From a bacterium (GTDB lineage: Bacteria > Patescibacteria > Microgenomatia > Levybacterales > GWA1-39-11), in assembly GCA_021825285.1 (NCBI GenBank), contig JAKAHW010000005.1:1-17261 (forward strand): a DNA stretch of 17,261 bases, written 5' to 3'. The notes under the pieces were generated by a model that had not been told where the DNA came from, did no database searches, and saw nothing but the letters and a program-made list of their open reading frames with translations. Below are positions 7,259-16,536 of this stretch, piece by piece. The position numbers and the translations under genes are program-made. Position 1 is the first letter of the stretch, and each line of letters begins with the position of its first letter.

Positions 7259-7330
7259 GCCGGCGTGGCTCAGTGGTAGAGCGAGTACTTGGTAAGTACT
7301 AGGTCATGGGTCCGATTCCCATCGCTGGCT
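7259..7330 (+). tRNA. tRNA-Thr (anticodon GGT)
   Basis: A 72-base cloverleaf. Acceptor GCCGGCG pairs with CGCTGGC (one G-T), D stem GCTC/GAGC, anticodon stem AGTAC/GTACT with loop TTGGTAA, T stem ATGGG/CCCAT. The discriminator is T and CCA is not encoded. The T loop reads TCCGATT, so position 55 is C instead of the near-universal T. TAAAAT at 7242-7247 is a likely -10 box. Confidence 0.93.
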
Positions 7331-7395
7331 CACGACAGCGTGGGATAAAGAAGGAAGAGCGAAGCGACCCTATCTTATTCCCATCGCTGGCTCAC
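7315..7395. repeat. 19-bp duplication of the tRNA-Thr 3' end
   Basis: Bases 7315-7333 (T-arm end, acceptor 3' strand and flank of tRNA-Thr) recur exactly at 7377-7395, a 62-base offset. The second copy contains the stop codon of the convergent kinase gene. Confidence 0.9.
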
Positions 7396-11198: not shown

Positions 11199-11723
11199 TT
11201 ACCTAGAGGAAAAAAGCTCATGAATTGCTTTCAATTGCCCAAAAAATCTTTCTCTTATCTCGTCAGGTGGAACCTGTCCGTTTACCATAACTGTTTTGTC
11301 CTTTTTCAACCAGGCTTCAACTTCTTCATCGCTATTTAAACCCATTTTGCCTGCTATCTGACGCCTAAACATATTTTCTCCAGCTGAACTCGAAAATACT
11401 TGAAGCTTTACCCATTGTATAGGGGAGGTACGGGGAGGAATAACTTGAGCAGTCCCATCTGTATTAATATTATTTACATCACGATGAATAGGATTTATCT
11501 TTACTGAAACTACACTTTTAAGCACACCCTGGACAGAATGGTCGGAAAGTGCGACAGCAACATTGTTTAAAGATTCTTGGGCTCTTCGATGTTCCTCAGG
11601 GTTTGATAAACCGGCATAAACGTCTTCAGCAGTCTTCCCTTCGGCAACGCCGCTGAACAAAATTCCAATTCTCTCTGCTTTACTAAGCCCATAATCTGGT
11701 TGGACCATTTCTCTAGTAGACAT
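11199..11723 (-). CDS. unknown soluble protein, 174 residues
   Basis: Not recognised. There is no signal peptide, membrane segment or Cys. The N-terminal third is helical (AERIGILFSGVAEGKTAEDVYAG, then a charged SNPEEHRRAQESL stretch), followed by a short Val/Ser-rich section and a C-terminal helical part (SDEEVEAWLKKDKTVMVNGQ, then EIRERFFGQLKAIHELF). ATG 11723 has TATAAT exactly 6 bases upstream, so the start is well supported and the mRNA should be leaderless. It has no close co-directional neighbour. The frame is intact and free of low complexity, so it is probably a real protein of unknown role. Confidence 0.7.
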   Translation of the reverse strand: MSTREMVQPDYGLSKAERIGILFSGVAEGKTAEDVYAGLSNPEEHRRAQESLNNVAVALSDHSVQGVLKSVVSVKINPIHRDVNNINTDGTAQVIPPRTSPIQWVKLQVFSSSAGENMFRRQIAGKMGLNSDEEVEAWLKKDKTVMVNGQVPPDEIRERFFGQLKAIHELFSSR

Positions 11724-11729
11724 GCTACT

Positions 11730-11735
11730 ATTATA
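11730..11735 (-). promoter_or_regulatory. -10 box for the 174-residue unknown protein
   Basis: Minus strand TATAAT with 6 bases to ATG 11723. A TTGACA at 11749-11744 is only 8 bases away, too close to be the matching -35 box. Confidence 0.5.
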
Positions 11736-11778
11736 TCAAAAAATGTCAAGCAATTTCAAAAAAGATGAGCTTTTGAGG

Positions 11779-11892
11779 CTAATACTTGAGGTAGTTTTCT
11801 TCTTTTGGCTCCTGAATTGTCTTTCTCATATGGTATTCACCTAGTCCAAAATATCCTTTTTCATCATATCCTATATTTTCTGATACTTGTCT
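11779..11892 (-). pseudogene. possible C-terminal remnant of a decayed gene
   Basis: On the minus strand 37 open codons run to TAG 11779-11781 and read like protein (SENIGYDEKGYFGLGEYH, then a KTIQEPKEENYLKY end). A stop closes the frame at 11893-11895, and there is no start or RBS. A short open stretch in another frame farther upstream (GEKLFEKLEQRV) could belong to the same broken gene. The family is not recognised and a chance open frame is possible. Confidence 0.25.
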
Positions 11893-12056
11893 TCACTAAA
11901 GGACGGTCACAACTTTTTATACTCTTTGTTCAAGTTTTTCAAACAATTTTTCACCCACAATTTCTCATTAAATTGCAAACTACTGCGAGTTAATTTATGA
12001 AGAATTTAATCCTACATGAGCCGATGGTGAGACTCGAACTCACGACTTGCTCTTTT

Positions 12057-12157
12057 TATTTTAATTATGGTGAGCCATCTCCGGGACTCGAACCCGGGAC
12101 TTGCTCTTTACGAAAGAGCTACTCTACCAACTGAGTTAAGATGGCATAATTAAAATA
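12057..12157. repeat. 12-bp perfect inverted repeat around the nested tRNA-Thr
   Basis: TATTTTAATTAT (12057-12068) and ATAATTAAAATA (12146-12157) directly enclose tRNA-Thr(CGT) and would extend its acceptor stem in RNA. Next to it CTAGC (12158-12162) and GCTAG (12168-12172) form a second small hairpin. Both lie within the insert. Confidence 0.85.
12073..12145 (-). tRNA. tRNA-Thr (anticodon CGT), nested inside another tRNA
   Basis: A complete 73-base cloverleaf: acceptor GCCATCT/AGATGGC, D stem ACTC/GAGT, anticodon stem GCTCT/AGAGC with loop TTCGTAA, T stem CCGGG/CCCGG with loop TTCGAGT. Discriminator T, no encoded CCA. It sits in the anticodon loop of the tRNA spanning 12019-12207. Confidence 0.93.
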
Positions 12158-12235
12158 CTAGCTTTTAGCTAGAGAAAGAGCTACTCTACCAGCTGAGTTA
12201 CATCGGCAACAAAGGCTATAACAAACCTATAACTT

Positions 12236-12367
12236 GATTTTACCAAAGGAAACACAAAAAGTGAAGAAATCCTGCCAGAGGAATACGAAAAACAAATTAA
12301 ACCTGCCCAATCAAAACTTTACAAAATAGATAAATTCTGCTCTCAGATGGTAGATCAAAAGCGGTGA
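12236..12367 (+). pseudogene. possible C-terminal coding remnant
   Basis: An in-frame stretch of 43 codons from just after TAA 12230-12232 to TGA 12365-12367 reads like protein (GNTKSEEILPEEYEKQ, then KPAQSKLYKIDKFCSQM). It lacks a start codon and RBS, and its end overlaps the candidate ncRNA. It may be the tail of a lost gene; no family recognised. Confidence 0.25.
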
Positions 12368-12516
12368 TTCCCCGAAACCTCAATCGGGAAGAAGCTTAGC
12401 ATACCCCGCAGGGTAAACTTAAAAACCTCTCGTCGCTCCATTACTGGAACTACCCCAAAGTCTCGAAGATTAGTGTAGAGGAAAACGTCCCGCTTCCCTC
12501 AACTCACCCAAGAGCA
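12335..12516 (-). ncRNA. candidate structured non-coding RNA
   Basis: A minus strand promoter (TTGACA-17-TAGACT, 12551-12523) predicts an RNA starting near 12516 with GGTG. Downstream are clear stems: GAGGGAA with TTTTCCTC; GTTCCA-GTAA-TGGAGC, a GNRA-type loop; TACCC-TGC-GGGTA; TTCCCGA with TCGGGGAA near 12390-12365. The starting GGTG could pair with CACC near 12365, closing the molecule. I tested by eye the signatures of RNase P RNA, tmRNA, SRP RNA and common riboswitches and found none. The 3' end is approximate. Confidence 0.4.
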
Positions 12517-12522
12517 CCTTCA

Positions 12523-12551
12523 AGTCTAGTAAAGTATTCCCGCATTGTCAA
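12523..12551 (-). promoter_or_regulatory. promoter of the candidate ncRNA
   Basis: Minus strand consensus TTGACA (12551-12546), a 17-base spacer, and TAGACT (12528-12523) as -10. No translatable frame follows, consistent with an RNA gene. Confidence 0.45.
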
Positions 12552-12602
12552 GTAAGGATTTGCAACCTATAGTTCTAATTGTTATAATCCACTTTACCTA
12601 AC

Positions 12603-12660
12603 TTTTGCTCTTAAATATTTGCGCAAAAGCGGTAGCTTTTGGCCGCCGCCAATTTGGCGG
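12603..12660. other. overlapping hairpins with two alternative pairings
   Basis: TTTTGC (12603-12608) can pair with GCAAAA (12623-12628), while the overlapping AAAAGC (12625-12630) can pair with GCTTTT (12635-12640) across a GGTA loop. CCGCCA/TGGCGG (12646-12660) follows. The first two are mutually exclusive. I see no gene in 12552-12702. Confidence 0.45.
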
Positions 12661-12702
12661 ATACATGACTAAAAGCAATTTTATTTGTCTTTCTACTCTA
12701 CT

Positions 12703-12901
12703 CGTTCATTTCCCTTAAAAAGGGGAAAGCTTTGAACGCTATGGGCGGGAAGACTTGTTTCGATTTTAGAATCGGAACGCACCTTGATAATTTGCGAAAG
12801 ATTTTTGCATCGCAAAAATCTTGAGTCTCGCCGAAGCATTAGCGAAGGCGGACAGAAAGATATGCGAAGCATAAAAACACCTATTTTGTAGGTGGTGTTT
12901 T
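12703..12901. other. run of six consecutive hairpins before the GC-rich island
   Basis: Stems in order: CGTTCA+TTTCCCTT with AAGGGGAAA+TGAACG (12703-12738); GTTTCGATT/AATCGGAAC (12757-12778); AAGATTTTTGC/GCAAAAATCTT, 11 perfect pairs (12798-12822); GTCTCGCC/GGCGGAC (12825-12853); TATGC-GAA-GCATA (12861-12873); AAAACACC/GGTGTTTT followed by a T tail (12874-12901). No convincing reading frame. It may be one structured RNA ending in a terminator, or a set of DNA hairpins. Confidence 0.55.
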
Positions 12902-12902
12902 T
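12874..12902 (+). terminator. terminator just before the GC-rich island
   Basis: AAAACACC (12874-12881) pairs with GGTGTTTT (12894-12901), with the alternative CACCTA/TAGGTG inside, and Ts at 12898-12902. The flanking A run makes it usable on both strands. Confidence 0.5.
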
Positions 12903-12959
12903 GTTGGAAAAAAGGTTTCCAGCCGAAATTACCATCTACAAGAGAAAGGTAAATTCACT

Positions 12960-13130
12960 TTGAACCAAAATCAGCTCATATTGCTGGTAGCTCTGTTTTC
13001 CATATGCTTTGTCACGGCATGCGAGGTTTACACCTCAATTCCTGACGACGAGTGGGAACAAAGATATCGAATTCTAGGCCCGATAACTGCGCTCTGCGCT
13101 ATAGCCGGTGCTATCATTTGGTTCGCCTAA
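12960..13130 (+). CDS. small predicted lipoprotein or membrane protein (first gene of the GC-rich island)
   Basis: A 56-residue frame missed by ATG-based calling, starting at TTG 12960 with AAAGG nine bases upstream. The N-terminus (NQNQLILLVALFSICF) is hydrophobic and ends in VTAC, a lipobox-like sequence with Cys21, so it may be a lipoprotein with a short mature part. Alternatively it spans the membrane twice, because a second hydrophobic segment (ITALCAIAGAIIWFA) ends the protein. No family recognised. Codon use shifts here toward GC-rich, marking the island's left edge. Confidence 0.5.
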   Translation: MNQNQLILLVALFSICFVTACEVYTSIPDDEWEQRYRILGPITALCAIAGAIIWFA

Positions 13131-13182
13131 AAAACGAGCAACGATTGGAATTCACTCCCAAGAGGAGTTAGAGGAGAAGAAA

Positions 13183-13311
13183 TTGGAGCCCAAACCTGAA
13201 GTGAAGATCCTCCCTTGCCCCGAGTGCGGAGCCCAAATTCGTCTCGTTGTCACTGACAGCAAGACGGAAGGGTTCTCCTGTACAAAGTGCAAGAAGATCA
13301 TTCACCTTTAG
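13183..13311 (+). CDS. small zinc-ribbon protein
   Basis: A protein of 42 residues from TTG 13183, which has GAGGAG six bases upstream; a GTG at 13108 would give 67 residues but overlaps the preceding gene and lacks an RBS. It contains CPEC and, 21 residues later, CTKC, a classic zinc-ribbon spacing like that of transcription factor or ribosomal zinc ribbons. The remaining residues are basic and strand-rich. It probably binds zinc, and perhaps nucleic acid or protein. No wider domain is present, so it may be an adaptor for its neighbours. Confidence 0.6.
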   Translation: MEPKPEVKILPCPECGAQIRLVVTDSKTEGFSCTKCKKIIHL

Positions 13312-13356
13312 ACCGCGGAAGCGGACGCCGTCAACGAAACCGACAAGGAGAAACGA

Positions 13357-13770
13357 TTGATTCCCGGTGATCCTCAAGCATGGAGCTGGTTCTTCGGCCT
13401 CGTGGGAGCACTTCTGGCACTGTCCTTCGGACTTTGCCTCGCGCTTCCCGTCGAAGGCAAGAAGACATACGTCATCTGGAGCCCATTCGTATTGGGACTC
13501 GTAACGTTCCTGTTCTGGCTTTTCGTCATGCAGACGCTTGACAACCGGAACATCTCTTGCGTAGAGCAAGCAATGAGGGGCTTCAAAGACCTTTCATCGT
13601 GTCCGTCATACGACACGACTGACGCTTCAGAAATCACGCTCATCGTGGGCATTGTCTGGATCTGCACAGCGGCCGTATCCCTTCTCATGGGGCTCTTGGT
13701 CACGGGTGGAACAGCACTGCTTGAATGGGCGATAGACCGCATCTCGCGGATACTGTTTACAACCAACTAA
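13357..13770 (+). CDS. unknown membrane protein with three predicted helices
   Basis: A 137-residue protein starting at TTG 13357, with AAGGAG seven bases upstream. Hydrophobic segments lie at about 10-31, 39-60 and 93-117. The loop between the second and third holds Cys68 and Cys82, which could form a disulfide if the loop is outside. The C-terminal tail is short and amphipathic. I do not recognise a family. It sits among other small membrane proteins of the island, suggesting a membrane-associated function or complex, but that is inference from context only. Confidence 0.65.
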   Translation: MIPGDPQAWSWFFGLVGALLALSFGLCLALPVEGKKTYVIWSPFVLGLVTFLFWLFVMQTLDNRNISCVEQAMRGFKDLSSCPSYDTTDASEITLIVGIVWICTAAVSLLMGLLVTGGTALLEWAIDRISRILFTTN

Positions 13771-13792
13771 TTCCTGAAGGAAGGAAAGGTCA

Positions 13793-14080
13793 ATGGCATC
13801 CAAAGGCGACGAAATCAACGGGAGCGAGAGGTGGGGCTTTTGGTCCGATAATCACGCTGTAGCCGGAGCCCGGATTGTTGTCTATGAAGGAGCAGACGGA
13901 AAAGAGGTCCGACTGACCGGCGTCAGCTCTTATCAGAACGGAGGCTCGTACTCGTGGAAGGACAGGCAGCCTGTGGGGCGCCTGACTAAGTTCATCCGCG
14001 AGGAGAACCCGAGGGAACCAAAGCCTAGCGGCAAGCTTGCCGACAGGCCACGGCGTACCCGCTCAAAGCCAACGAGGTGA
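13793..14080 (+). CDS. unknown small protein with basic tail
   Basis: Protein of 95 residues, ATG start with a strong SD (AGGAAGGAAAGG) 2-14 bases upstream. The N-terminal two-thirds looks like a small beta-rich fold (ARIVVYEG, GKEVRLTGVSSYQNGGSYSW), and the last 35 residues are highly basic and Pro-rich (PRRTRSKPTR at the end), which would suit nucleic-acid or membrane-surface binding. No signal peptide, no Cys. Family not recognised. It is followed by a 90-base gap that holds a partial copy of the island's repeated leader. Confidence 0.65.
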   Translation: MASKGDEINGSERWGFWSDNHAVAGARIVVYEGADGKEVRLTGVSSYQNGGSYSWKDRQPVGRLTKFIREENPREPKPSGKLADRPRRTRSKPTR

Positions 14081-14170
14081 CAAATCGGCTCAAACGGCAA
14101 GAGCGACATCGTTATCGTGCTTAAGTTCACATCCCGCCAATTCGAAAACCAGAACCGATGGGAGGGTTCT

Positions 14171-14377
14171 ATGGACACCAATTCAGTCAAGATCATCATC
14201 GCCGTTCTAATCGTGCTCGCAGCACTCGCCCTGCTTGAGGCCGTCTGGCAGTCAAGAAGGGTCATCGATGCTGAGGAGAAGAAATCCCGGTTTGGGATTG
14301 TTGTGAACCAATGGTACCGGCTTGGATTCTCCTCCGCACTTGCAGGTTCGGCCATCGTTCTCGCAATCAATCTCTAG
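14171..14377 (+). CDS. small two-helix membrane protein
   Basis: A 68-residue protein; ATG 14171 is preceded by GGGAGGG, so I prefer it to the GTG at 14117. Two hydrophobic helices (about 7-22 and 52-67) flank a charged loop (SRRVIDAEEKKSRF). Topology suggests a hairpin in the membrane with a charged turn. No family is recognised. A perfect CTTGGG-GAAA-CCCAAG hairpin follows eight bases after the stop. Confidence 0.6.
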   Translation: MDTNSVKIIIAVLIVLAALALLEAVWQSRRVIDAEEKKSRFGIVVNQWYRLGFSSALAGSAIVLAINL

Positions 14378-14384
14378 CCATAAC

Positions 14385-14400
14385 CTTGGGGAAACCCAAG
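14385..14400 (+). other. GAAA-capped perfect hairpin
   Basis: CTTGGG, loop GAAA, CCCAAG. No T tract follows, so it is not a standard terminator; it could be a processing or stability element between two island genes. Confidence 0.5.
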
Positions 14401-14411
14401 ATCATAAGTCT

Positions 14412-14457
14412 CGGGAGAAAAAAGAACCGGGAACGCCAATTCACGACCGAGTTCAGG
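14412..14457 (+). repeat. island leader repeat, copy A
   Basis: 46 bases that recur at 15264-15309 with three mismatches. Both copies sit just before a gene start. The 3' end of this copy is part of the SD region of the gene at 14470. Confidence 0.85.
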
Positions 14458-14469
14458 AAAGGAACGGAA

Positions 14470-14970
14470 GTGAGCTATCTTCTCACAGAAGAAATGGTCC
14501 GTGAAGCCGTCGATTTGGTTCGACCGGCTATTGATCACATCCGGACCACGTTCGCCAAGCGAAGCCACGGCCATCTGATCGTGGTCGACCCAAACTCAGG
14601 TTCTGAACCCGAGAACCTCTACGAGGAATCCTGGGGAGATCCTGCGACGGAGTGGGAGCATTCCTACGACCTGATTGCCCAGGGAAAGGCTGACCTCTGC
14701 TTTTATACCGGCCGGAACTCCCGGACGGTTGTGACGGAGGAACCCTACCTTTTGGGCGAAGGCCACACCCAGTGGGTCGGAGCAATCGTTTCTGGCCCCA
14801 GCCGGCGACTGGTCGTTTCCTATTCGGGAGCGGAAGACTACGTGGATGAGATGATCTGCTATCTGGTCGCAGCCGCGATCCAGATGGTCTCTCGCCGCGC
14901 ATTCGCCAATCTCCCGGCGGAACTCGACTTCCCCTGGGATGAGGAGGACGAGGAACCGAACTATCGTTAA
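14470..14970 (+). CDS. conserved-looking unknown protein, 166 residues
   Basis: The start is probably GTG 14470, which follows AGGAAAGGA; the frame is open upstream to 14311 but that part overlaps the preceding gene. The protein starts helical (TEEMVREAVDLVRPAIDHI), has a central YDLIAQGKADLCFYTGRNSR segment, an EPYLLGEGHTQWVG segment, and an AGAEDYVDEM-like stretch (SYSGAEDYVDEMICYLVAAA) with an acidic tail. This resembles uncharacterised proteins I recall from Parcubacteria genomes, sometimes loosely called heme-binding/GlcG-like; I cannot verify that here. Soluble, with two Cys. It is the largest protein of the island and the best handle for finding related islands. Confidence 0.7.
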   Translation: MSYLLTEEMVREAVDLVRPAIDHIRTTFAKRSHGHLIVVDPNSGSEPENLYEESWGDPATEWEHSYDLIAQGKADLCFYTGRNSRTVVTEEPYLLGEGHTQWVGAIVSGPSRRLVVSYSGAEDYVDEMICYLVAAAIQMVSRRAFANLPAELDFPWDEEDEEPNYR

Positions 14971-14996
14971 CGACCAGAGTTCAGAAAGGCATAGCC

Positions 14997-15233
14997 ATGG
15001 CTTGGTTACAAATCTGCCCAACCTGCGGCGGAAGCGGACTCCATCTTGCGGGAGGAGGCATCGCCTACCTTTGCGTTCTTTGCGAAGGAGAAGGCCGGAT
15101 TTCCGTTCCGTTCTTCCGAACACGCGTCGAAGGCGTCCACACCGTTTTCCGGTTCGTGTGCAGCCCGGGGGTACCCGTAACCTACGACGAATTTCTCGCA
15201 GGCAAAAGGCCCACCCTGGCCGCGGCTTCTTAG
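14997..15233 (+). CDS. small DnaJ-type zinc-finger protein
   Basis: Protein of 78 residues with two CxxCxGxG-type repeats: C7-P-T-C10-GGSG and C26-V-L-C29-EGEG. In DnaJ and related proteins paired repeats of this kind form one zinc centre that holds substrate or partner proteins. There is no J domain, so this is a stand-alone single-centre finger, perhaps an adaptor. The C-terminal half (FFRTRVEGVHTVFRFV) is strand-like. ATG 14997 is preceded by GTTCAGAAAGG, which matches the 3' end of the island's repeated leader. Confidence 0.65.
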   Translation: MAWLQICPTCGGSGLHLAGGGIAYLCVLCEGEGRISVPFFRTRVEGVHTVFRFVCSPGVPVTYDEFLAGKRPTLAAAS

Positions 15234-15263
15234 TTCGTAACCACTCGAACTACGACACAGCTC

Positions 15264-15309
15264 CGGGAGAAAAAAGAACCGAGAACGCCAATTCACGTCC
15301 GAATTCAGG
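15264..15309 (+). repeat. island leader repeat, copy B
   Basis: Second copy of the 46-base element (three mismatches to 14412-14457), ending 16 bases before the ATG of the next gene. A partial match to its 3' part is also seen before the gene at 14997. Confidence 0.85.
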
Positions 15310-15325
15310 TAAGAGGGACAGACTC

Positions 15326-15496
15326 ATGGGTCATGTGATTTTGTTTCTGCTCTACTGCATGTGTATCCTGCTTGGGTTCACTGTTGTGGGCGCGACAACC
15401 GACCGATGGCTTCCGAGCATCCTTGTGTTTACGGGACTAATCCTGATTGGATTTGTGGTCTTCACGATCTCAATCCGAAATCTGAAAAGCCCGTAG
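15326..15496 (+). CDS. small two-helix membrane protein
   Basis: Protein of 56 residues, ATG start with an AAGAGGGA SD about 7 bases upstream and leader repeat B directly before it. Two hydrophobic helices (about 3-24 and 31-50) joined by a short loop (TTDRWLPS) and ending in a basic tail. Similar in plan, though not obviously in sequence, to the two-helix protein at 14171. No family recognised. Confidence 0.6.
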   Translation: MGHVILFLLYCMCILLGFTVVGATTDRWLPSILVFTGLILIGFVVFTISIRNLKSP

Positions 15497-15538
15497 CGCT
15501 TGCTGCTCGAAGCACCATCACCAGGACAGGAGAATTGG

Positions 15539-15772
15539 GTGGCTAAAATCACAGCCTCAGGTATCGTTCGCGGCACATGCCCCGAACATCCGAAATGTGC
15601 CCTCCTCGGAGGTAACGATCCGGACTTCGTAGTTCACGCGCCGTTTGCGCACCAGCGAAAAGGGGGAATCCCTGAAGTCGCCGCGCCGGCCACCTGGTCT
15701 GCCACAATGAAGCAGATCAACGATGTGGACGACCAGCCCATGATCGCCGCCATCTGGTGGGACGTGGAATAA
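15539..15772 (+). CDS. unknown small protein, last gene of the island
   Basis: Probably 77 residues from GTG 15539, with AGGAG six bases upstream; an in-frame TTG-type start at 15500 has no RBS. Contains CPEHPKC (C14, C20) close to the N-terminus, then a FVVHAPFAHQRKGG segment with His residues, and an acidic, Trp-rich end (AAIWWDVE). The Cys/His content would allow metal binding. No family recognised. It ends about 75 bases before the compound hairpin that closes the island. Confidence 0.6.
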   Translation: MAKITASGIVRGTCPEHPKCALLGGNDPDFVVHAPFAHQRKGGIPEVAAPATWSATMKQINDVDDQPMIAAIWWDVE

Positions 15773-15847
15773 TCTTTCGCAATACACGGGTAAAAACTCT
15801 ACAACCGCCAATAAGCTTGCGGAAACTCGAGGAATAACTCGTACAAG

Positions 15848-15948
15848 GTGGTCTACGGGGTGGATCGGAAAAAGAACTTAACAGTTCGCTTAGTAAGTTC
15901 GCTTACTCAGCCAAAAGCTGTTTCTTTTCTCCGATCCTCCCCCACCAC
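15848..15948. other. 100-base compound hairpin with TTCG-capped inner stem at the island's right edge
   Basis: GTGGT (15848-15852) with ACCAC (15944-15948); GGGG with CCCC; GGATCGGA (15862-15869) with TCCGATCC (15930-15937); AAAAGAA then ACAG with matching TTCTTTT/CTGT. Inside, AGTAAG (15892-15897), loop TTCG, CTTACT (15902-15907). Such a long, nested structure suggests a structured RNA or a strong terminator, although no T tract follows. Confidence 0.7.
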
Positions 15949-16027
15949 ACCCTAATTAACAATTTCAAATTTCCATTTTCCAATTGACAATTAATTCATC
16001 AATTTTTCAATTAACAATTAAATCTGT

Positions 16028-16039: not shown

Positions 16040-16405
16040 ATGGGAAAGTTCGATTCTGAAAAATTCTATGAAAGGCTTTATCTATTTGGTAGAAATTGCC
16101 TATTTTTAGTTCGAAGCTCTTCTAGGAATATTTATTTGAATGAATACAATTCTCAACTTATTAGATCTTCTGCTTCAGTTGGAGCAAATTACATAGAAGC
16201 TCTTGAAGCATTAAGTAAAAAAGACTTTATTCACCGTTTGAAAATATCAAGAAAAGAAGCAAGAGAATCAATACATTGGTTAAGATTATTAAAAGAGGGA
16301 AATAGTAATCCAGAAATTCCAAAACTAATAAAAGAAGCTGAAGAAATTAAAAACCTTCTTTCGTCCTCCATTCTCACCTTGGAAAAAAAGACCAAAACTG
16401 ATTAA
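16040..16405 (+). CDS. four helix bundle protein (S23/rRNA intervening-sequence protein family)
   Basis: Protein of 121 residues, all helical, with the family's features: a YLFGRNCLFLVRSS helix, the signature QLIRSSASVGANYIEA (39-54), SKKDFIHRLKISRKEARESIHWLRLL (59-84), and a final helix with NLLSSSILTL. These proteins are often encoded in intervening sequences of 23S rRNA genes, and relatives serve as accessory (Avd) proteins of diversity-generating retroelements. Here it stands between genes, flanked by AT-rich inverted repeats, with no rRNA, reverse transcriptase or template repeat nearby. Molecular role unknown; nucleic-acid binding is suspected for the family. Normal length, intact. Confidence 0.88.
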   Translation: MGKFDSEKFYERLYLFGRNCLFLVRSSSRNIYLNEYNSQLIRSSASVGANYIEALEALSKKDFIHRLKISRKEARESIHWLRLLKEGNSNPEIPKLIKEAEEIKNLLSSSILTLEKKTKTD

Positions 16406-16464
16406 TTGCCCAATTGAATAATTAATTGGAAACTGCTAATTGGAGACTGGAAACTATTGAAGTG

Positions 16465-16536
16465 AGCCTTCTGTGGGATTCGAACCCGCGACCTGCTGTT
16501 TACAAAACAGCTGCTCTACCGCTGAGCTAAGAAGGC
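16465..16536 (-). tRNA. tRNA-Thr (anticodon TGT)
   Basis: A 72-base cloverleaf: acceptor GCCTTCT/AGAAGGC, D stem GCTC/GAGC, anticodon stem GCTGT/ACAGC with loop TTTGTAA, T loop TTCGAAT (normal). The T stem GCGGG/CCCAC has one C-A mismatch. Discriminator T, no encoded CCA. It completes a set of GGT, CGT and TGT threonine anticodons within this window. Confidence 0.94.

Follow-up and report, generated by a model that had tools for sequence, protein, structure and literature searches.

The window analysed here, that is, the whole stretch of 17,261 nt from contig JAKAHW010000005.1 of a Patescibacteria genome (Levybacterales), contains a complete tRNA gene lying inside the anticodon loop of another tRNA gene. 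The block consists of the following features:

12174..12207, minus strand: 5' half of the resident outer tRNA-Thr, whose last base is C34 in the anticodon loop; it pairs with the 3' half through the acceptor, D and anticodon strands
12158..12173, minus strand: left hairpin of the insert, CTAGCT/AGCTAG, in the predicted fold; its relative position is that of the left hairpin of the class B elements described below
12145..12157, minus strand: left arm of the palindrome enclosing the inner tRNA; 13 nt, 100% complementary to 12057-12069, taking in base 1 of the inner tRNA
12072..12145, minus strand: complete inner tRNA-Thr(CGT), read as a working gene (ARAGORN; Rfam, 66.2 bits)
12057..12069, minus strand: right arm of the palindrome; 13 nt, complementary to 12145-12157
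12019..12053, minus strand: 3' half of the outer tRNA-Thr (anticodon stem strand, variable loop, T arm and acceptor strand), whose stems pair with the 5' half

ARAGORN placed the inner tRNA-Thr(CGT) at 12145-12072 of the minus strand, and Rfam placed it at 12145-12073 with 66.2 bits. An earlier annotation made from the sequence alone (the first-pass annotation) had described fully paired outer stems around this gene, and a nest-detector script indeed found every pair in place (acceptor 7/7, D 4/4, anticodon 5/5, T 5/5). The insert between the outer halves is 120 nt long, as had been stated; the enclosing inverted repeat is likewise perfect, but measures 13 nt rather than 12. In the predicted fold, the insert forms a separate domain, as previously proposed, in which the hairpin is followed by the palindrome with the inner tRNA in its loop. 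The hairpin, first given as CTAGC/GCTAG, extends to CTAGCT/AGCTAG and is predicted both for the insert alone and for the whole block. The two tRNAs share 26 of 27 nt across the D and anticodon arms and differ in the acceptor and T stems; the inner one carries the anticodon CGT, and the outer one is of the Thr type with an incomplete anticodon. The tRNA-in-tRNA observation is thus confirmed as real, and because of this shared sequence and the recurrence of the architecture in other genomes, the nesting is not a matter of chance.

We further examined whether the insert resembles a known intron. A group I intron or another known RNA family was rejected as an identity for the insert, as only tRNA matches reached the curated cut-off. 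Rfam searches gave no group I match at E<=5 in window positions 11700-13100, in line with the first-pass statement that a group I core is missing, and none at E<=1 in ten nested loci. The same annotation had the insert opening the outer anticodon loop. The insert does lie in that loop, but the loop is not simply opened, since CGT cannot be obtained from the junctions: among the 54 cut pairs tried for excision, none yields this anticodon. An intron-aware scan, which had been proposed as a check, did not recover the outer tRNA either, as ARAGORN with introns allowed does not report it. At the level of sequence, splicing of the outer tRNA is not supported.

Several observations concern the surroundings of the block. 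A protein adjoining the locus had three relatives in a large protein set, one of them 99% identical, and a search with the neighbouring 174-aa protein against genome contigs gave no match. A prenyltransferase search at E<=1e-30 returned one protein, and the window junction found no match in viral contigs. At window positions 7259-7393, the last ~17 nt of a tRNA-Thr(GGT), ATTCCCATCGCTGGCTC, are repeated ~43 nt downstream, possibly as a remnant of another displaced outer tRNA. Positions 13001-16000 have a GC content of 51-58%, compared with 31-44% elsewhere in the window, and many small overlapping open frames; this stretch may be a foreign island or a chimeric join. Positions 16040-16405 hold a gene for a four-helix protein of the 23S rRNA intervening-sequence type (PF05635, TIGR02436).

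The RNase HII encoded in the window has named relatives in Levybacteria and other Patescibacteria among the best 120 of 7990 matches. Its alignment yielded the best 80 loci in named genomes, and 13 of those genomes were searched first. In Candidatus Levybacteria RIFCSPHIGHO2_01_FULL_41_15 (genome G011, the record behind locus L013), the match spans the whole block and represents a second tRNA-in-tRNA. A pattern of two T arms spaced too closely for tandem tRNAs occurred in 34/82 genomes of the order, compared with 5/82 for the reversed control, not all matches being nests. In a set of mixed phyla that included some Patescibacteria, 8 of 50 genomes matched, two of which hold nests on reading: G357, of the same class as G011, and G426, a Dojkabacteria record behind L041. 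The other matches in this set resemble repeated tRNA ends, tandem tRNAs or coding sequence. In a Lactobacillales control, the pattern matched 25 of 118 genomes; 29 of the 30 loci fetched had no ARAGORN tRNA within 250 nt of their centre and one lay in a tRNA array, and nests were not seen there at the sensitivity used. The nest-detector script returned 44 raw calls, some of them false through tandem tRNAs (e.g. L113, Tyr, and L129).

Reading of the loci revealed two main kinds of insert. Class A inserts have the ends CCYGCCYG...CRGGCRGG, and class B inserts consist of a left hairpin, TCCCAG...GGGA, followed by a second palindrome, TCCC...GGGA, that contains the tRNA. The class A 3'-end pattern was found in 18/82 genomes of the order and in 19/192 genomes drawn from the phylum, with 0 matches in the reversed control. 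Of 47 distinct class A places read, 40 are in tRNA-in-tRNA arrangements (L269 and L286 each contributing two places in one block), 6 are not nests (L255, L265, L272, L277, L284 and L294), and one, L296, is undecided as the contig ends there. Of the outer tRNA, no more than a 3' remnant can be seen at L259, L283 and L293. The class B core pattern occurred in 14/373 genomes of the class, at a single place each, and 0 times in the reversed control. A complete tRNA adjoins the core at 14/14 places according to ARAGORN, and remnants of a tRNA of the same kind surround the core and its tRNA at the 14 places on reading. The window element has the class B layout, a hairpin and then a palindrome holding the tRNA, in a different sequence; since its AT-rich palindrome lacks the ends of both classes, it is placed among these cassettes by its architecture. 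Further variants were also observed. The outer D-loops of L122, L141, L155 and L174 carry another recurring kind of insert, several with CTTGCTTGACAAG. In the nested tRNA-Ala of L286 (G504:C4), the 3' part (T arm, acceptor end, GGCAGGCGGG and an outer fragment) is tandemly repeated, and the tRNA-Pro nest L269 (G052:C96), in which one class A 3' end follows another and two more T arms occur, is possibly a nest within a nest.

To compare inner and outer tRNAs, we used the places at which both element ends could be located. There are 55 such places, and the removal of L243 as not nested leaves a set of 54 loci, outside which stand the window and several nests with unrecognised ends (e.g. L118, L120, L126, L132, L134, L151, L159 and, of class B, L144, L146, L147 and L148). 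Under a script rule, the insert, 100-171 nt in length, enters the anticodon loop at 22 class A and 16 class B loci and the D-loop at 16 class A loci; the insert of L300 is probably also in the D-loop. With cut and site rules tuned after earlier automatic runs, 36 of the 46 loci readable by script have the same anticodon in the outer and the inner tRNA, compared with a mean of 4.0 and a maximum of 12 in 5000 shuffles; these 46 loci are not fully independent, as insertions are common to related genomes, and Thr is over-represented. The earlier runs, an all-cut-pairs test and an anticodon reading that confused the T arm with the anticodon arm (13/48 match), were set aside. Among the ten script mismatches, L116, L278, L281, L286 and L290 are cognate by eye, and the remaining five (L258, L267, L271, L285 and L295) are changed or unreadable. 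Outside the set, L246, in G426, is a possible exception to the cognate rule, with an inner Arg GCG and an outer CGT called by ARAGORN.

Related genomes provided both the same arrangement, which recurs in many ultra-small Patescibacteria, and an uninterrupted counterpart of an outer tRNA, as the first-pass annotation had proposed to look for. When the outer halves of one nest in G011 are joined, they are identical at 73/73 nt to the uninterrupted tRNA-Thr(CGT) of G002, and the 109-nt insert separates G35 from U36 without duplicating the target. Near-identical cassettes also occur in different outer tRNAs. A Val cassette found in G022 and G050 has inner tRNAs identical at 74/75 nt and spacers at 12/12 and 15/16; the surrounding outer halves show 74% and 59% identity. 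In a Leu cassette found in G037 and G039, the inner tRNAs agree at 82/82 nt and the spacers at 18/19 and 17/17; identity falls to 29% and 69% in the outer halves, the lower value arising because one outer half contains an extra tRNA-less palindrome. Each piece of the two cassettes is 94-100% identical and their 150-nt flanks 55-77%. Both pairs sit at syntenic loci where matching frames, antisense frames included, are 38-87% identical, and the cassettes therefore look much younger than the loci that hold them. At a Thr-Tyr-Thr tRNA cluster, the inner tRNA is identical in G038 and G027 and similar to the outer tRNA of G070, and that outer tRNA in turn contains a further inner tRNA; judging from this resemblance, replacement at the cluster seems to repeat.

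We next considered which of the two genes is complete. In G011 and G038, the surroundings of 44 tRNA-family matches each were fetched, in which ARAGORN then called 45 and 43 tRNAs, respectively, with about one complete gene per anticodon. All 11 identified nested inner genes, six in G011 (Thr-CGT, Thr-TGT, Arg-CCT, Leu-CAG, Leu-TAG and Gly-CCC) and five in G038 (Thr-TGT, Cys-GCA, Leu-CAG, Val-CAC and Val-TAC), were the only complete gene found for their anticodon. Many outer tRNAs are decayed. A strict script test (perfect acceptor, T stem and T loop) was passed by 24 of 54 outers; the 30 failures overstate the lesions, because the test accepts only a 7-nt T loop and may pick the wrong arm (e.g. 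L085, L142, L153 and L275), and intact outers are favoured in the set by the loci that the T-arm pattern contributed. Under the tuned rules, ARAGORN was applied after excision at the element ends of the 55 places: 20 yielded a tRNA whose anticodon is that of the inner gene, 4 a different call and 31 no tRNA. In the class B pair G027/G038, the inner tRNAs are identical at 73/73 nt and the outer halves differ at 7/70 positions. In G008, an inner tRNA identical to that of the window at 71/74 nt is followed by only a remnant of a window-like outer 3' half; one of the 55 frames in the surrounding 16 kb has a match in the window, next to the other tRNA-Thr (16464-16536), and the two places are therefore not clearly syntenic. 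The Gln nests of G062, G017 and G050 present a different picture, with outer halves 86-97%, spacers 85-100%, inner tRNAs 79-99% and 150-nt flanks 57-65% identical, and with a paired change in the acceptor between G017 and G050. This conservation may mean either that the outer tRNA is maintained by selection or that the block was transferred as a unit.

Class A ends are not confined to nests. They also flank short tRNA-less palindromes, in 2-19 copies each in 9 of 10 genomes among the matches listed, with 0 in the reversed control. At L338, the 5' half of a Gly-type tRNA carries such a tRNA-less palindrome in its D-loop. At its anticodon loop comes a class A left end and then a complete tRNA-Gly(TCC), and no 3' half of the outer tRNA was found within 99 nt. 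The predicted fold of the class B core shows two-sided changes at 12/19 pairs across 17 sequences. A self-splicing RNA was nevertheless rejected for this core despite these covarying pairs, and class B was filed as a DNA element rather than a ribozyme, because the structured core of the Glu locus L135 and the tRNAs there are on opposite strands. As for a mobiliser, Y1_Tnp is present in 14/15 genomes with nests and in 7/13 others, which is suggestive of a RAYT. Class A end motifs are not enriched beside Y1 genes, at 0.16 per kb around 20 of them compared with 0.26 in ten comparison loci, whose motif density is raised as they were picked for tRNA nests or relics; a RAYT was accordingly not retained as the mobiliser.

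Based on these data, we consider it probable, at roughly 80%, that the insert is a cognate tRNA cassette that has displaced the resident tRNA gene, with an inner tRNA that is presumably functional and an outer tRNA that is a decaying relic. We infer that the cassette inserts as DNA and that its target thereby dies: a palindromic element with a complete tRNA-Thr(CGT) in its loop would enter the anticodon loop of a resident tRNA-Thr and, by supplying a tRNA of the same kind, would allow the cell to survive the loss of the resident gene. The inner tRNA would then take over, and the interrupted outer one would decay as a relic. The palindrome arms would pair into a stem against which the acceptor stem of the inner tRNA can stack, and in this arrangement the inner tRNA could be freed by RNase P and 3' processing. 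Cassettes appear to have moved repeatedly among Patescibacteria, and their cognate specificity may reflect either targeting or selective survival, in which an insertion persists only if it replaces the gene it breaks. In the window, the outer stems are still intact and the anticodon can no longer be assembled. The last alternative named in the first-pass annotation, a dead outer copy left after one tRNA inserted into its paralogue, is probably right. Its split-tRNA-like reading finds no support, as outers are often decayed, the inner gene is the only complete one found in 11/11 nests identified in two genomes and 0/54 excisions restore CGT in the window. The first-pass interpretation is thus supported in part; that displacement recurs in Patescibacteria, mostly between cognate tRNAs, lay beyond what the window sequence alone could show. 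Counted against displacement are the perfect stems of the window outer, the conserved Gln nests, the 20/55 excisions that return the same anticodon, the non-cognate L246, the absence of class A or B ends from the window palindrome and the lack of a link between Y1 genes and class A ends.

Some of the same observations would suit an unusual intron outside group I, in which removal of the inner tRNA would be followed by ligation of the two outer halves, for instance through an enzyme of the RtcB type, so that one locus yields two tRNAs. The perfect stems of the window outer, the 24/54 outers that pass the acceptor and T-arm test, the 20/55 places at which excision gives a tRNA with the inner anticodon and the conserved outer halves of the Gln nests are all compatible with such an intron. 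Restoration of a tRNA by precise removal does not discriminate here, because insertion without target duplication predicts the same result. We regard the intron as unlikely: no tRNA results at 31/55 places, CGT could not be given to the window outer by any of the 54 cuts, the outer Val of G022 reads CGT rather than CAC (L258), the strand of the class B core in L135 is incompatible with one self-splicing RNA, and the inner gene would be sufficient on its own.

A one-off pseudogene, formed when a paralogous tRNA inserted by chance and no recurrent element was involved, would account for the paralogy of the inner and outer tRNAs and for a window insert that lacks class A and B ends. The recurrence of the architecture, the cognate pairing and the palindromic flanks at dozens of loci makes such an event highly improbable. 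An error of assembly or binning might be suspected from the GC content of the neighbouring 13.0-16.0 kb (51-58%, against 31-44% elsewhere in the window), but equivalent nests occur in separate assemblies, some at syntenic loci of different species, and this explanation is hardly credible.

A broader claim, which we hold with somewhat more confidence than doubt, is that Patescibacteria carry mobile, palindrome-borne selfish tRNA genes that enter the loops of cognate tRNAs and swap the tRNA repeatedly at the same locus. If true, a selfish tRNA gene would persist because it replaces what it destroys. tRNA genes are usually regarded as passive landing sites, whereas here the cargo itself would be a tRNA, and its landing site a tRNA gene of the same kind. 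This would offer a concrete route for the replacement of essential tRNA genes and would explain interrupted tRNA genes that the standard tRNA finder does not report. It also advises caution, in that intact-looking outer halves are not to be called introns or split tRNAs.

Finally, we compared the nests with known systems. REP-BIME and the Rickettsia palindromic elements are palindromic interspersed elements, and class A elements are likewise short palindromes with conserved ends, in 0-19 copies per genome in ten genomes among the matches listed. They differ from REP-type elements in that the nest elements carry a tRNA gene in the loop and no Y1/RAYT link was seen, and class B and the window element have ends other than those of class A. 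Integrative elements use tRNA genes as attachment sites and restore the tRNA with a fragment at one end; the nests share the use of tRNA genes as targets and the compensation of the lost gene. In contrast to integrative elements, they bring a whole tRNA within an insert of 100-171 nt (54 loci), which is too short for an integrase gene. In archaeal split and permuted tRNAs, the tRNA halves are separated in the genome, as are the outer halves of the nests, but decay affects many of the latter, and it is apparently the inner gene that provides the function. In searches of mainly open-access literature, the titles and abstract openings returned contain no description of tRNA genes nested in Patescibacteria tRNA genes. 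Group I introns are reported in some tRNAs of CPR genomes (PMC8172020), and PMC12641178 cites a 2025 preprint (Nakagawa et al.) on group I introns in Patescibacteria tRNA genes. Such introns also interrupt a tRNA gene, but no Rfam group I match was found in the window segment or in the ten nested loci searched; the nests carry a complete tRNA, usually one with the same anticodon, and their outers decay. A tRNA gene inside another gene is also found in the tRNA-Sec gene nested in selB (PMC8124441), where the host is a protein gene, whereas in the nests it is a tRNA gene.
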